Source: Desulfomicrobium baculatum DSM 4028 | Lineage (GTDB): Bacteria; Desulfobacterota; Desulfovibrionia; Desulfovibrionales; Desulfomicrobiaceae | Reading direction: 5' to 3' | NCBI RefSeq assembly: GCF_000023225.1 | Contig: NC_013173.1 | Span: 1,552,501-1,616,500, forward strand | DNA length: 64,000 nucleotides | Part shown: piece after piece, positions 11,111 through 17,129 of the stretch | Layout of the letters: every line of letters starts with the position of its first letter | Position numbering within the stretch: the first letter of the stretch is position 1 | The notes under the pieces: model-generated | Database searches by the model: none | What the model was told of the DNA's origin: nothing | The model's input: only the letters and a program-made list of their open reading frames with translations | Translations under genes and position numbers: made by a program

Positions 11111-11164
11111 ATGATCTGAAATGGATTTGTCTTGTTTTTCCACTTCAGATTTCATGGAGGGACT

Positions 11165-12790
11165 ATGAATCAGACGTTACGGAAGGCGGTCCTTTGCGGG
11201 GCTCTTGCCGTGTGCCTGGGCCCCATGGTGGCCTTTGCCGCGACAGAGGACAGCGAAGCGCCGGGCCGAGCCCTGGCGAGACAGACCGTCAAGAATGACG
11301 CCCAGAAATGGATCACCACCGATCATTCCCAACATCCGATTCTCAAACAACAATTCAGTTCGCCTGAAGAAGTGACCAAGGCTTGCCTGACGTGCCATAA
11401 TCAGGCCGCCATGCAGCTGCACAAGACCATCCACTGGACCTGGAAGGACCCGGCCGACCCCAGCGGGGAAACAGGCAAGGGCGGCCTGTCCGTCAACAAT
11501 TTCTGCATCAGCGTGGGCTCCAACGAACCCCGCTGCACCTCATGCCACATCGGTTACGGCTGGAAGGACAAGAACTTCGATTTCAGCAAGGCCGAAAAGG
11601 TGGACTGTCTGGTCTGTCACGAACAGACCGGCACATACGAGAAATTCCCGACCAAGTCCGGTTACCCCGTGACCAACGCAACCATGTTCGAGGGCAAGAT
11701 AGAATTCCTGCCCCCGGACTATAACGCGGTGGCGCAGTCGGTGGGGCGTCCGGGGCGCGACAACTGCGGCACCTGTCACTTCTACGGAGGCGGTGGCGAC
11801 GCGGTCAAACACGGCGACCTGGACTCGTCCATGGCCATGCCAAGCAAGCAGCTCGACGTGCACATGGGCACGGACGGACAGAATTTCGATTGCAGCCGCT
11901 GTCACACCACAAACGCCCACAATATCGCCGGGCGCATCTACGCCACTCCGGCTTCCACGGAGCGCAAGAGCCTGCTGGAGGACGACCTGACGCCCAAGAT
12001 CATGTGCGAATCCTGCCACGGCGCGCAGCCGCACAAAACCAACCAGAAAGCCAACGATCACACCGACAAGGTCTCCTGTCAGGCGTGTCACATCCCGACC
12101 TATGCCCGCATCAATGCGACCAAGATGCACTGGGACTGGTCCACGGCCGGGGACAAGAAGCGCGAGGTGAAGAAGGACGAGTTCGGCAAGGCGGACTACG
12201 ACGCCAAGAAGGGCTCGTTCGTATGGCAGAAAAACGTCGTTCCTCGCTACGAGTGGTTCAACGGCTCCATCCGGGGCACCACGGCCAAGGACGTTATCGA
12301 CCCGTCCTCGACGGTACGCGTTTCCTGGCCCATCGGAGGCATTGGCGACCCCAATTCGCGCATCTTCCCCTTCAAGGTGCACACCGGCAAGACCCCGTAC
12401 GACAAGGTCAACAAGACTATGGTCATTCCCAAGCTCTTTGGCCCCAAAGGATCGGGCGCGTACTGGGCCGAGTTCGACTGGAACAAGGCCATCGCGATCG
12501 GGCAGGAGTACAACGGGCTGCCCTACAGCGGCGAGTATGATTTCGTGGACACGGAATACGTCTTCCCCATCACCCACATGGTCGCGCCCAAGGAACAGGC
12601 CGTGGCCTGCGTGGAATGTCATGCCAAGGGCGGTCGGCTCGACCATCTGGAAGGCTTTTACATGCCCGGCCGTGATTCGGTGCAGCTCCTGAACATGGGC
12701 GGCTGGGCCATGGTCGCGGCCTCGGTTCTGGGTGTCGTCCTGCATGGGCTGGGGCGTTTTGTGAGCAGCGTCGGACGTCGCAAGGAGTGA
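11165..12790 (+). CDS. Octaheme c-type cytochrome, tetrathionate reductase (OTR) family
   Basis: The protein is 541 residues and exported: residues 1-26 form a signal peptide ending near AFAATE. Eight CXXCH haem motifs begin at Cys 74, 124, 148, 201, 243, 281, 305 and 482, matching octaheme tetrathionate-reductase-type cytochromes. Members of that family reduce tetrathionate, nitrite or hydroxylamine in vitro. A hydrophobic segment at about 511-533 probably anchors the C terminus in the membrane, leaving the haems in the periplasm. The start ATG has GGAGG 5-9 nt upstream. The next gene, a cytochrome b, begins 5 nt after the stop, so the pair probably passes electrons between the quinone pool and a periplasmic substrate. 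The physiological substrate is not known. Confidence 0.88.
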   Translation: MNQTLRKAVLCGALAVCLGPMVAFAATEDSEAPGRALARQTVKNDAQKWITTDHSQHPILKQQFSSPEEVTKACLTCHNQAAMQLHKTIHWTWKDPADPSGETGKGGLSVNNFCISVGSNEPRCTSCHIGYGWKDKNFDFSKAEKVDCLVCHEQTGTYEKFPTKSGYPVTNATMFEGKIEFLPPDYNAVAQSVGRPGRDNCGTCHFYGGGGDAVKHGDLDSSMAMPSKQLDVHMGTDGQNFDCSRCHTTNAHNIAGRIYATPASTERKSLLEDDLTPKIMCESCHGAQPHKTNQKANDHTDKVSCQACHIPTYARINATKMHWDWSTAGDKKREVKKDEFGKADYDAKKGSFVWQKNVVPRYEWFNGSIRGTTAKDVIDPSSTVRVSWPIGGIGDPNSRIFPFKVHTGKTPYDKVNKTMVIPKLFGPKGSGAYWAEFDWNKAIAIGQEYNGLPYSGEYDFVDTEYVFPITHMVAPKEQAVACVECHAKGGRLDHLEGFYMPGRDSVQLLNMGGWAMVAASVLGVVLHGLGRFVSSVGRRKE

Positions 12791-12795
12791 TTGAT

Positions 12796-13437
12796 ATGAG
12801 CACAAAAAAGAAAATCTACCTGTACACGAGGTTCGAGCGTTTCTGGCACTGGGTTCAGTCCCTGCTCATCTTCCTCTTGCTGCTGACCGGTTTCGAGGTC
12901 CATGGCACCTTCACCCTGTTCGGCTTCCAGAAGGCGGTGGAGTACCATAATTTCCTCGGCCTGACCTGGGTCATCCTCTTCATCTTCATCGTCTTCTGGG
13001 TCGTGACCACGGGTGAATGGCGGCAGTACATCCCGACCACCAAGAAGCTCTTCGAGGTCATTGGCTATTATTCCTCCGGCATTTTCAAGGGGCTGCCGCA
13101 CCCGGTCAAAAAATCCAAGGAGACCAAGCACAACCCCCTGCAGCGCCTGACCTACCTGGGCCTGACCGCGATCCTGCTGACCCTGCAGATGGGCACGGGG
13201 CTTTTGTACTACCTCTACAACGACTGGGCCATCTGGAACTGGACCTTCCTGGACCTGCGCCTCCTGGCGCTCATCCACCTGGCCTGCGCGTTTGCCATCC
13301 TGGCTTTCATCATCGTCCACGTCTACATGACCACCACCGGCCACACCCTGACCAGCCACATCTCCGCCATGTTCAGCGGCTGGGAAGAAGTGGAAGAGGG
13401 CGAAGTGGCGGAGTGGGAAGTGCAGAAGAAAAGATAG
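12796..13437 (+). CDS. Membrane cytochrome b partner of the octaheme cytochrome
   Basis: This 213-residue integral membrane protein has four predicted membrane helices (about 18-36, 52-75, 115-140 and 155-180). Candidate haem b ligands are seen in RFWHWVQ, VEYHNFLGL, LLALIHLACA and FIIVHVYMTTTGHT. This matches the cytochrome b561/thiosulfate-reductase cytochrome b group, which transfers electrons between quinol and a periplasmic c-type cytochrome. ATG 12796 is preferred over GTG 12787 because AAGGAG lies 8 nt upstream of it. It is co-transcribed with the octaheme cytochrome and is followed by strong terminator hairpins. Confidence 0.85.
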   Translation: MSTKKKIYLYTRFERFWHWVQSLLIFLLLLTGFEVHGTFTLFGFQKAVEYHNFLGLTWVILFIFIVFWVVTTGEWRQYIPTTKKLFEVIGYYSSGIFKGLPHPVKKSKETKHNPLQRLTYLGLTAILLTLQMGTGLLYYLYNDWAIWNWTFLDLRLLALIHLACAFAILAFIIVHVYMTTTGHTLTSHISAMFSGWEEVEEGEVAEWEVQKKR

Positions 13438-14650: not shown

Positions 14651-15148
14651 TCAGATCATTTTTGTCTTCTTGAGCGCAGTGGCCGCGAACATGCCGCCCA
14701 CTGCGCCGCCCACGGCCTGGATCAGGTTGGCCGGGATTTCGGCCACTGCGCCCTGCAGGCCGATGTTGGGCATCATGACTTCTCCGAAAAAGTAGATTCC
14801 GACCATGGCCGCTCCGCCAAGGGCGAGCACCGTGTAGCGGGCCGCCCCGGTCCTGCTTGCGGCTACGGCGGCAAGCGCGCCTTCCGCGCCCTTGGCGGCG
14901 AAGGTCAGGGGCGCGAAAACCGCGAATCCGCCCAGGATGTCGGCCAGGGCCGAACCGATGCCGCAGGCTCCGACCGCCCACAAGATGCCCTGTCTCGGAT
15001 TCATGAAGCCAAGGACCAAACCACCGAAGACCACGGCCACATCGCCCACGTTGAAATACCCACGGCTCGGCAGCGGGATGCGCACGAAGAGGGTGGTCAG
15101 GCAGGTCAGGGCCACGATGGACAGGGCGGCTATCTTGATGTTCTTCAT
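14651..15148 (-). CDS. ECF transporter S component (substrate-binding membrane protein)
   Basis: This 165-residue protein has about five to six hydrophobic helices. The central FNVGDVAVVFGGLVLGF, GIGSALADILGGFAVFAP and TFAAKGAEGAL segments follow the pattern of ECF S components of the HmpT/RibU-like type (vitamin or vitamin-precursor uptake). It is the last gene of a four-gene overlapping operon; its start overlaps the T-like gene stop by 4 nt (ATGA). The substrate is not identifiable from sequence, and no riboswitch is visible upstream of the operon. Confidence 0.72.
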   Translation of the reverse strand: MKNIKIAALSIVALTCLTTLFVRIPLPSRGYFNVGDVAVVFGGLVLGFMNPRQGILWAVGACGIGSALADILGGFAVFAPLTFAAKGAEGALAAVAASRTGAARYTVLALGGAAMVGIYFFGEVMMPNIGLQGAVAEIPANLIQAVGGAVGGMFAATALKKTKMI

Positions 15149-15741
15149 TTTTCTTTCCTCATATATCTGGTGCGGTGGTCAAACAGGGCCTGGGTCTTTT
15201 CGGCCTGGCCGTAGATGCTGATGTAGGCGGCCACGATGACCGCGCACAGACGCTGGAACCTGTGCCAACGTCGGCCGTCGAAATGCGGGGTCAGGTCCAT
15301 GAAAAAACGGTAACGGTGCAGCAGTGGGGTACATTTTTCCATCACGGCCTTCAAGACGATGGCGTTGCGTCGTCCTCCCGCGCCAAGTGGGAGATGGACG
15401 ATGTCGCGAAAGGTGATGGCTTCAAGGCCGAGCTTCACGGCCAAAAAGGAATTGGGAAAGACCAGGGCTTTTATGAGCGAATCGTGAATCCAGTCGGTGC
15501 GGCCCATGAGCCCGATCCACTGAAAGATCGCGCCGAAAAGAATCAGGGACAGCACAAAGGGCAGGATGAACCACATGGCCTGCACGGTGCCTCTCGGGCC
15601 ATTCCTCCAGACGCTGACAGCCAGGAACGCAAGCAGCAAAACGGCCTGGAGGTCCACCTGCTCATAACCGGCCCCGAAGACGAAAAACCGGAAATAGGCC
15701 CCGAGCAGCCCGAAGATGCCAAGCAGTTTCAACGTGGCCAT
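15145..15741 (-). CDS. Divergent ECF T component-like membrane protein
   Basis: This 198-residue protein has membrane helices near residues 5-22, 30-45, 55-78 and about 165-178. A hydrophilic stretch between them contains LLHRYRFFMDL, and the C terminus has DHRTRYMRK. In EcfT proteins such Arg-containing coupling helices contact the ATPases. The similarity is weak; I rely on size, topology and position between the ATPase genes and the S component. It overlaps the P-loop ATPase gene by 13 nt and the S component gene by 4 nt. Confidence 0.55.
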   Translation of the reverse strand: MATLKLLGIFGLLGAYFRFFVFGAGYEQVDLQAVLLLAFLAVSVWRNGPRGTVQAMWFILPFVLSLILFGAIFQWIGLMGRTDWIHDSLIKALVFPNSFLAVKLGLEAITFRDIVHLPLGAGGRRNAIVLKAVMEKCTPLLHRYRFFMDLTPHFDGRRWHRFQRLCAVIVAAYISIYGQAEKTQALFDHRTRYMRKEK

Positions 15742-16247
15742 AACTGTGTGAGCCTTACGTTGACGTCCGTTCCTTCCTGCCTCTCGAAGGCCAGCTCAAA
15801 ACCATGGGAAAATTCGGTGCATCGCTCACGTCGCGGCAGATGCGAGACCTGCACGACCCAGTCGAATCCGGGCAGGTTCAGAGCCTTTAGTTGCTCAGTG
15901 CTCACGTATTTGTCGAACTCGTCAAGAATGATGGTGTCCCGGCACCCGCTGGTTCTGACCCAGGCCACGGCCATGTCCGCCAAAGAATCAGGGACATCGT
16001 GTCCGAGCAGGGCCAGGGTGGTGCGGATGGTGTTCTGTTGCAGCTCCATGTCCTGGGCCAGATAGAGCAGGCTGTGCTTTTTGCGCAGGCTGGGAATGAG
16101 AACATGTTCCAGAAAGGTGCTCTTGCCCGCGCCGTTGTCCCCGCTCAGATACAGGCAGCTGTGCCTCGGCAATTCAAGGGCGCGGTCAAGGACGAAGTTC
16201 AGTCCGGCCTGCGCGACGGGATAGGTCCGAGCAGCGAGTTCAAACAT
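15729..16247 (-). CDS. ABC-type ATPase half with Walker A/B but no signature motif
   Basis: This 172-residue protein carries a clear Walker A (GDNGAGKST, residues 36-44), a Q-loop-like LAQDMELQQNTI (Gln65), Walker B DTIILDE (Asp109, Glu110) and an H-loop His136 in VVQVSH. The region between the Q-loop and Walker B (about 82-103) is short and has no LSGGQ-type signature. The length is well under the 230-280 residues usual for ECF ATPases. The partner gene just upstream (16240-16641) has exactly the missing signature. I infer that the two subunits form one composite ATP site in an ECF transporter. It overlaps that gene by 8 nt. Confidence 0.72.
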   Translation of the reverse strand: MFELAARTYPVAQAGLNFVLDRALELPRHSCLYLSGDNGAGKSTFLEHVLIPSLRKKHSLLYLAQDMELQQNTIRTTLALLGHDVPDSLADMAVAWVRTSGCRDTIILDEFDKYVSTEQLKALNLPGFDWVVQVSHLPRRERCTEFSHGFELAFERQEGTDVNVRLTQLWPR

Positions 16248-16641
16248 GATCGGCCAGGGGTTTGGGTCCGTTTTCCGTCAGCACCGAGAGCGACGCGGCC
16301 GGAAGAAGGGCGGCGAATCTGTCCAGAAGGAGGCTGCGATTGCGCGGGGAGAGGGTCTCCAGCACGTGGACCAGGAGGACGCACAGCTTTTCCTTGGGCA
16401 GCAGGTGCATGAGCAACAGGCAGCAGATGATGCTCTGCTCGCCGCCTGAATAGGAGGGAAGCTTGCGGCCGGGCTCAAGCTGCAGGCCGAAGCGGGAGCA
16501 CTCCTGGGCAATGACGGAAAAAAGGTCGTCGCCCGCTCCCAAAAGCAGAATTTCATCCTCCAGCGTGGTGCCGACAAAGAGATTATGCGTGTCGATGACA
16601 CAATAGTCGCGGCCATATTCCGCAAGAGTCGCGAAGCTCAT
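16240..16641 (-). CDS. ABC-type ATPase half with signature motif but no Walker A
   Basis: This 133-residue protein starts where an ECF ATPase would be past its P-loop. LFVGTTLEDEI (residues 21-31) resembles the FVGATVEDD segment after the Q-loop of EcfA proteins, and the ABC signature is YSGGEQS (64-70) with the following helix IICCLLLMHLL. The Walker B position reads LCVLLVHVLETLSP, without the DE pair. No Walker A exists in the frame or in the short upstream spacer. It is the first gene of the operon and diverges from a Nudix gene. It probably provides the signature face for the ATP bound by its partner subunit and cannot hydrolyse ATP alone. A decayed gene is the alternative, but the tight overlapping operon argues against that. 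Confidence 0.68.
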   Translation of the reverse strand: MSFATLAEYGRDYCVIDTHNLFVGTTLEDEILLLGAGDDLFSVIAQECSRFGLQLEPGRKLPSYSGGEQSIICCLLLMHLLPKEKLCVLLVHVLETLSPRNRSLLLDRFAALLPAASLSVLTENGPKPLADHV

Positions 16642-16712
16642 GGGCGCTCCAGCGGGCGGATGGGCCTTGTTTTGCTTGACGGGGAAAGGCGGTGGTGCAA
16701 AAGAGTTGTCCC

Positions 16713-17129
16713 ATGATAAAATTCAGTATCGAATGCTGGCTCTACAATGATCTGGAAGACCGATTTCTGCTCTTGCGCTGCCCCGTGACCCATCGCCATG
16801 ATGAATACTGGCAACCCGTGACCGGCGGACGAGGCCCCGACGAGCCCTGCATCGAAGCCTGTCTGCGCGAAGTGGAAGAGGAGACGGGCGTGACGCTGAC
16901 CGCGGAGCAGCTGGAAGTGGTCATCCCCGAGTTCTCTTTCTGCATCCCCGACGCGCGCATCGAGTTGCGCAAGCCCATCTACCTGGCCCGGGTCAGAGTC
17001 GAAAAAGTGGTCCTCTCCGCAGAGCATATCGGCTACTATTGGTTTGACGCCGGGGATGTCGATGCCCAGTTGCACTGGGATTCCAACCGCGAATCGTTTC
17101 GTCAGGTTCTGGCCCACACCCGCCCCTAA
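16713..17129 (+). CDS. Nudix hydrolase, NudB-like
   Basis: The 138-residue protein has an exact Nudix box: GGRGPDEPCIEACLREVEEE followed by TGV, matching GX5EX7REUXEEXGU. Size and the N-terminal IKFSIECWLYND pattern resemble dihydroneopterin triphosphate pyrophosphatase (NudB) of folate synthesis, but this is only a family-level suggestion. ATG 16713 is preferred over an in-frame GTG at 16692. It diverges from the ECF-type operon and its 3' end overlaps the convergent thioredoxin-like gene by 4 nt. Confidence 0.82.
   Translation: MIKFSIECWLYNDLEDRFLLLRCPVTHRHDEYWQPVTGGRGPDEPCIEACLREVEEETGVTLTAEQLEVVIPEFSFCIPDARIELRKPIYLARVRVEKVVLSAEHIGYYWFDAGDVDAQLHWDSNRESFRQVLAHTRP

Follow-up and report, generated by a model that had tools for sequence, protein, structure and literature searches.

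How an importer might be driven by two ATPase-like subunits, each of which carries half of the motifs needed to handle ATP, is the question raised by a short operon of Desulfomicrobium baculatum DSM 4028. The operon lies in a stretch of 64,000 nucleotides (contig NC_013173.1, positions 1,552,501 to 1,616,500), referred to here as the window, whose own numbering is used for all coordinates; the genome comprises 3,942,657 bases in one contig. Four minus-strand genes between 16641 and 14651, here designated D, E, T and S, overlap one another by 8 nucleotides (D/E, 16240-16247), 13 nucleotides (E/T) and 4 nucleotides (T/S), so that the coordinates and the single overlapping operon described in an initial annotation, made from the sequence alone, are confirmed. 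The answer proposed here, to which we assign a probability of about 0.78, is that the operon encodes a micronutrient importer of the energy-coupling factor (ECF) type, whose motor would be a D:E heterodimer with a single composite ATP site. The genes and motifs involved are as follows.

16240..16641, minus strand: D, putative half-ATPase with the signature only, of ECF-type ATPase origin, 133 amino acids (CbiO profile alignment, AlphaFold2 and Foldseek; without Pfam match)
16435..16449, minus strand: signature SGGEQ of D, residues 65-69
16348..16353, minus strand: D-loop remnant LS of D, residues 97-98, aligned to LD of the CbiO GLDP
15729..16247, minus strand: E, small signature-less ATPase that has the catalytic core, 172 amino acids (Pfam scores below cut-off, CbiO alignment at Walker A, conserved motifs)
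16119..16142, minus strand: Walker A GDNGAGKS of E, residues 36-43
16050..16055, minus strand: Q-loop QD of E, residues 65-66 (18/18 E)
15918..15926, minus strand: Walker B LDE of E, residues 108-110
15840..15848, minus strand: H-loop VSH of E, residues 134-136
15145..15741, minus strand: T, divergent membrane subunit, EcfT-like by prediction, 198 amino acids (AlphaFold2 and VIA-align; without CbiQ match at the sequence level)
14651..15148, minus strand: S, substrate-binding S component, 165 amino acids (PF07155)

According to excerpts of a study on an ATP-binding cassette (ABC) exporter, each ATP site is built from the Walker A, Q-loop, Walker B and H-loop of one subunit and from the signature and D-loop of the other (PMC12038006). 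The initial annotation had assigned the first four of these elements to E, which it described as devoid of a signature, and had described D as a protein with SGGEQ and the segment FVGTTLEDE, without Walker A and with a Walker B lacking DE. This division holds throughout the homologues: every E (18/18) but no D (0/19) has Walker A, LDE and VSH, while SGGE occurs in all D (19/19) and SGG in no E (0/18). In the D of the window, YSGGEQ occupies residues 64-69 and, at the place of Walker B, a profile alignment sets VLLVHVLETLSP opposite the LLLDEPTTGLDP of CbiO. As a control, Walker A, SGG and [L/F]DEP occur together in all 18 CbiO proteins of related loci.

Two further features can be added to the initial annotation. 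D also lacks the glutamine of the Q-loop and the histidine of the H-loop; whereas Q65 is found in every E (18/18), the aligned position of D, I16, is occupied by I, L or V in 19/19. E, for its part, is shortened elsewhere, the Walker A lysine being separated from the glutamine by 23 residues and the glutamine from Walker B by 44, versus about 43 and about 77, respectively, in the CbiO proteins displayed beside it. The D-loop, in turn, keeps L-S in 19/19 D, and its second position in E accommodates seven different residues and one gap among the 18 sequences. Thus, neither protein by itself unites Walker A, Walker B and the signature, D being without the P-loop part and E without most of the stretch from Q-loop to Walker B. 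The locus therefore contains neither the two A subunits with a full set of ABC motifs that characterise ECF transporters, nor two full-length nucleotide-binding domains with one site disabled by substitution. The one-site model fits because what E would contribute is kept without exception in E and is gone from D, and what D would contribute never varies in D but is missing or variable in E. As far as sequences can tell, this pattern is the conservation expected from one composite site and no second, and it supports the shared site that the initial annotation had proposed.

A search of 297 genomes of the order recovered D in 19 of the 22 genomes of the family, representing three of its four genera: 16/16 genomes of the genus, the window's own included, and three of the six other family members. 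None of the remaining 275 genomes searched in the order contained it, and the family genomes without D are G003 (100% complete), G070 (83%) and G077 (77%). E was detected in 24 of the 297 genomes, namely the same 19 and five others with weak matches (E-values 6e-6 to 8e-4) in open frames of 318-580 amino acids, which are taken for general ATPases. A search of the class gave D in 21/297 genomes, 17 in the family and four weak; G075 and G079, positive in the search of the order, are absent from its list. Among the weak matches outside the family, those at L119 and L121 are full-length CbiO-like ATPases, and L120 carries a CbiO-like open reading frame (ORF) according to BLAST. G147 gave a weak match as well, and G067 a second, weak one. 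Across 395 genomes of the phylum, T was found in the window's own genome alone. A scan of the GTDB collection with two short patterns, which distant forms can escape, gave nine T loci in Desulfomicrobium, Desulfomicrobiaceae, Desulfovibrionales or proteobacterial metagenome-assembled genomes, apparently none of them beyond the family set.

Conservation of D and E side by side, which had been set as a test of whether the pair forms a system, was found in all 18 relatives, where the two genes adjoin in an unchanged order and have T and S as neighbours throughout (D-E-T-S). In 17 of them the four genes lie on a single contig and on the same strand, and in the other (G073) the operon is split over two contig ends, one with D-E and one with E-T-S. 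The two resulting E fragments (L062, L063), as well as the S of G079 (L060), cut by a contig end, were omitted from the alignments. Identities to the window's proteins descend to 31% for D, 30% for E, 32% for T and 56% for S. Homologues in the form of full-length EcfA proteins, which would have meant decay, were never seen: D ranges from 122 to 142 amino acids and E from 161 to 179, excluding the two fragments cut by contig ends. D and E overlap by 8 nucleotides in 14/18 relatives, and this conserved overlap suggests translational coupling; the rest, with starts chosen by script, give +17, +23, +4 and, in one case, a 62-nucleotide gap. The E matches of G039 and G048 (L039, L040) were listed with one internal TGA; their ORFs end at LW, near the end of the query, and the TGA is taken as an alignment running past the stop codon.

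The ratios of non-synonymous to synonymous substitution (dN/dS), calculated against five relatives with our own Nei-Gojobori script, were 0.15-0.23 (D), 0.13-0.18 (E), 0.06-0.18 (T) and 0.07-0.21 (S), and both ATPase pieces are therefore under ordinary purifying selection. These values bear on the idea that D and E are decayed ATPase genes, or a single gene split by a sequencing frameshift. Although each protein alone is without parts of a normal ABC domain, as that idea would have it, the low dN/dS of both, the same arrangement in 19 genomes, and the extension of both proteins through the Walker-B and H regions, which consecutive halves of a single domain would not share, make it hardly credible. 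Taking into account the 19/19 and 18/18 motif counts together with a dN/dS of 0.13-0.23, chance and decay are excluded.

How such a pair could work can be outlined from what has been described for ECF transporters, in which ATP-driven closure of the ATPases moves the coupling helices of EcfT and expels or re-orients the S component (excerpts of PMC10368641 and PMC4820897), with two ATPase subunits per T in the module (PMC6828968, in part). In the present operon, E would provide Walker A, Q-loop, Walker B and H-loop, and D would provide the signature and the D-loop across the interface, with one ATP held between the P-loop of E and the signature of D. A second site could not form, because D lacks a P-loop and E a signature. 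A coupling helix of T would dock on each of the two proteins, and one ATP per cycle would open and close the clamp, leading to the bending of these helices and to the cycling of the S component. The heterodimer, the single site, the use of one ATP per cycle and transport itself are what we infer, and the mechanism overall is probable. It is also likely that this is an obligate one-site ABC motor, in which each ATPase has been stripped to its half of one composite site and no second site, even degenerate, is left. Since one defining feature of ECF transporters, complete A subunits, is missing, we call the system an ECF-like variant that would work like an ECF transporter, and not a standard member of the group.

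A different arrangement would place D outside the catalytic dimer, as a regulator or a holdover, with E forming a homodimer or having a different cellular ATPase as its partner. The genome does hold a CbiQ-CbiO gene pair elsewhere, plus 90 ABC-ATPase matches. However, the signature and D-loop residues of D, which would be useful across an ATP, are invariant in 19/19, E adjoins D in every one of the 18 relatives, and a homodimer of E would hold no signature at all; this arrangement is thus very unlikely.

As regards the origin of the two proteins, no Pfam match and no convincing Pfam or NCBIfam family was found for D. Its profile aligned with that of CbiO (hhalign) over 98 columns and scored 59.4, whereas 60 column shuffles gave at most 26.4. 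The alignment spans from HNLFVGTTLEDE (opposite DQLFCPTVLEDV), through SGGEQ, to VLLVHVLETLSPRNR (opposite LLLDEPTTGLDPEAR), D being collinear with CbiO from the Q-loop region through the H-strand region. The CbiO profile was built from 18 of 21 CbiO-like ORFs, and the CbiQ profile mentioned below from 17 of 20. In the AlphaFold2 model of D (mean predicted local distance difference test, pLDDT, 91.5; predicted template modelling score, pTM, 0.86), strands occupy residues 14-17, 87-91 and 117-122, and a helix, 66-80, starts in the signature. The three top matches of this model in the PDB, according to Foldseek, are the ECF ATPases 6zg3_F, 4huq_B and 8bms_A (E-values 1.4e-3 to 6.4e-3). VIA-align gave a Z of 8.7 with the CbiO 2pjz (root-mean-square deviation, rmsd, 3.7 over 120 residues), a value shared by other ABC ATPases. 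The strands of the Q-loop, Walker B and H-loop normally adjoin in the ABC sheet, and the three strands modelled in D would be these, D then consisting of half the sheet and the whole helical subdomain.

When compared with PDB sequences, the D profile met the C-terminal parts of SMC proteins (best E-value 0.0038, profile positions 60-122) and EcfA1 (4huq_B, E-value 0.05, positions 19-120). TALE repeat proteins, which took the top rows of the same search, were rejected, the three alignments shown containing no stretch better than an E-value of 19 and only sum scores over repeats. Taking into account the alignment with the CbiO profile and the weak matches to full-length CbiO-like ATPases, D looks like an ECF-type ATPase that has lost its N-terminal P-loop part. 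An alignment between the D and E profiles gave no relation.

The weak match to SMC C-terminal parts would also suit a model in which D and E are the pieces of one split nucleotide-binding domain, with D acting as the helical subdomain in trans to E, and in which two such units assemble, as in SMC or Rad50, into a D2E2 complex with two ATP sites. That E is missing most of the helical segment from Q-loop to Walker B points in the same direction. In SMC and Rad50 proteins, Walker A and the signature lie in separate lobes, and the SMC lobes together form one domain. D and E, unlike those lobes, each extend through their own Walker-B and H-loop regions, which makes a split domain less likely. The strands of the D model, read as Q-, Walker-B- and H-strand, would duplicate those of E and would be needless in a helical subdomain supplied in trans; moreover, the two ATPase places per T of an ECF module (PMC6828968, in part) would already be filled by D plus E. 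All this considered, the split domain is unlikely.

Regarding the partner in the proposed heterodimer, E scores below the Pfam cut-offs for both PF00005 (21.6 bits, cut-off 25) and AAA_22 (23.8 bits, cut-off 27). Among the 18 E proteins, AAA_22 matches 18 and ABC_tran 17 at an E-value of 0.01 or better. Its score with the CbiO profile was 60.8, compared with 25.9 in shuffles, in an alignment restricted to 26 columns around Walker A, and in the PDB search its stretch from Walker B to the H-loop aligned weakly with ABC-F proteins.

For T, described as a divergent T-like protein, a structural model ranks EcfT/CbiQ proteins first, but no convincing Pfam or NCBIfam family and no convincing match to the CbiQ profile were obtained. 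The AlphaFold2 model (pLDDT 78.5; pTM 0.61) was compared using VIA-align, whose top seven rows are all EcfT/CbiQ chains (Z 7.4-6.3, rmsd 5.4-8.8; the next row has 4.9), with 184-189 of the 198 residues aligned. The alignments stop at residue 209-233 of these chains, whose lengths are 236-266, and T may be without the last membrane helix; its EcfT-like fold is supported at the level of prediction. Two arginines, R143 and R190, are invariant in 19/19 T and fall within the last two predicted helices. EcfT carries X-Arg-X anchors (excerpts of PMC10368641), of which these candidate coupling-helix arginines may be the counterparts. Such motifs (Ala-Arg-Gly) terminate two coupling helices in ECF transporters; no Ala-Arg-Gly was seen by eye in the T of the window. 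A match of T to a glucoamylase among PDB sequences (E-value 2.3) was dismissed as chance.

S belongs to PF07155 (ECF-ribofla_trS; E-value 1.4e-16, 61.4 bits versus a cut-off of 26.7), so that the operon does include the S component claimed for it, membrane-embedded and of a known family. Of 380 genomes searched across the phylum, 14 contained a match to S, and 13 of these lie outside the family. The neighbourhoods of the 13 loci (L142-L154, L155-L167), covered by stretches of 8-12.5 kb that in some cases are shortened by a contig end, contain no ORF of at least 90 amino acids with a match to the D, E, T or CbiO profiles. The S relatives therefore do not reveal the canonical ATPase source of D and E, and those outside the family may work alone or share a module. 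A match of 143 amino acids to the CbiQ profile at L157 (E-value 1.6e-4) was set aside as spurious.

Several results weigh against the reading of the operon as a one-site ECF-type importer. The putative contact between D and E has been deduced from sequence. No Foldseek match of D reached 0.001 or better, the best being 1.4e-3, and its VIA-align Z of 8.7 barely exceeds the level that the tool calls common. For E, AAA_22 is slightly ahead of ABC_tran as the best Pfam family, both below cut-off, and descent from an ECF ATPase is not established because its CbiO alignment is confined to the Walker A columns. The comparison of T with the CbiQ profile (hhalign) scored 14.4, below both the mean (15.1) and the best (29.9) of 60 column shuffles. 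Foldseek alone was insignificant for T (best E-value 1.0, with CbiQ chains in ranks 4-5 at about 2), and Z values accompanied by an rmsd of 5.4-8.8 can be within reach of unrelated helical proteins. Finally, since 16 of the 19 genomes with D belong to one genus, few independent lineages sustain the conservation described.

With respect to known systems, the closest in composition are the ECF transporters with EcfA and EcfA', such as ECF-FolT2, which, like D-E-T-S, combine an S component, a T-like subunit and two ATPase-like subunits (PMC4820897 and PMC10368641, in part). Their composite ATP sites also take the signature of the other subunit, and D is related to such ATPases. However, both ATPases of ECF-FolT2 have all the motifs (excerpts of PMC4820897), and the chloroplast ECF ATPases ABCI10 and ABCI11 keep them as well (excerpts of PMC6828968), whereas D and E carry half each, D having no P-loop; T is also shorter than the EcfT/CbiQ chains (198 versus 236-266 amino acids). 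In the cobalt transporter CbiQO, the DQLFCPTVLEDV, SGGEQ and GLDP of CbiO align with the NLFVGTTLEDE, SGGEQ and D-loop region of D. Unlike D and E, CbiO unites all motifs in a single chain of about 240 residues (18/18 have Walker A, SGG and [L/F]DEP).

One working and one disabled site are likewise found in the asymmetric ABC transporters Pdr5, TM287/288 and CFTR (PMC6533308 and PMC12038006, in part). The deviant site of Pdr5 has substitutions in every motif except the D-loops, and the non-canonical site of TM287/288 still binds ATP (excerpts of PMC6533308). In those transporters the loss has occurred by substitution in complete domains, whereas in D and E whole stretches are gone, and from an ECF-like importer. 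The initial annotation knew of no ECF transporter with the P-loop half missing in one subunit, and no precedent has come to light: in the open-access literature searched, and in the excerpts cited, no P-loop-less subunit paired with a signature-less partner is described.

Whether two ATP sites are necessary in ABC transporters, and which role a degenerate second site has, is an open question; the exact function of that site has been called elusive, and a gradient of asymmetry among these transporters has been described (excerpts of PMC6533308). The D/E family would fall past the far end of this gradient, its second site being unable to form rather than mutated. As the halves are on small separate proteins, the part of one site in ATPase activity, in ATP stoichiometry and in the cycling of the S component would be directly measurable.

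Next to the operon, a NUDIX hydrolase gene (16692-17129, plus strand) is divergent from D and adjoins it in 17 of the 18 relative loci, another genus included; it is absent at L069, in G044, a genome that gave no match in a search run without a positive control. Its product weakly resembles dihydroneopterin triphosphate diphosphatase (49 bits, cut-off 103), and this neighbour is a possible hint to a substrate link. An Rfam scan of the window at gathering cut-offs found no RNA family, and hence no riboswitch hint to the substrate. Elsewhere in the window, the gene at 11132-12790 (plus strand) encodes a multihaem cytochrome, in whose sequence eight CxxCH motifs were counted by eye, and is followed at 12787-13437 (plus strand) by the gene of a membrane protein that we take to be a cytochrome b.
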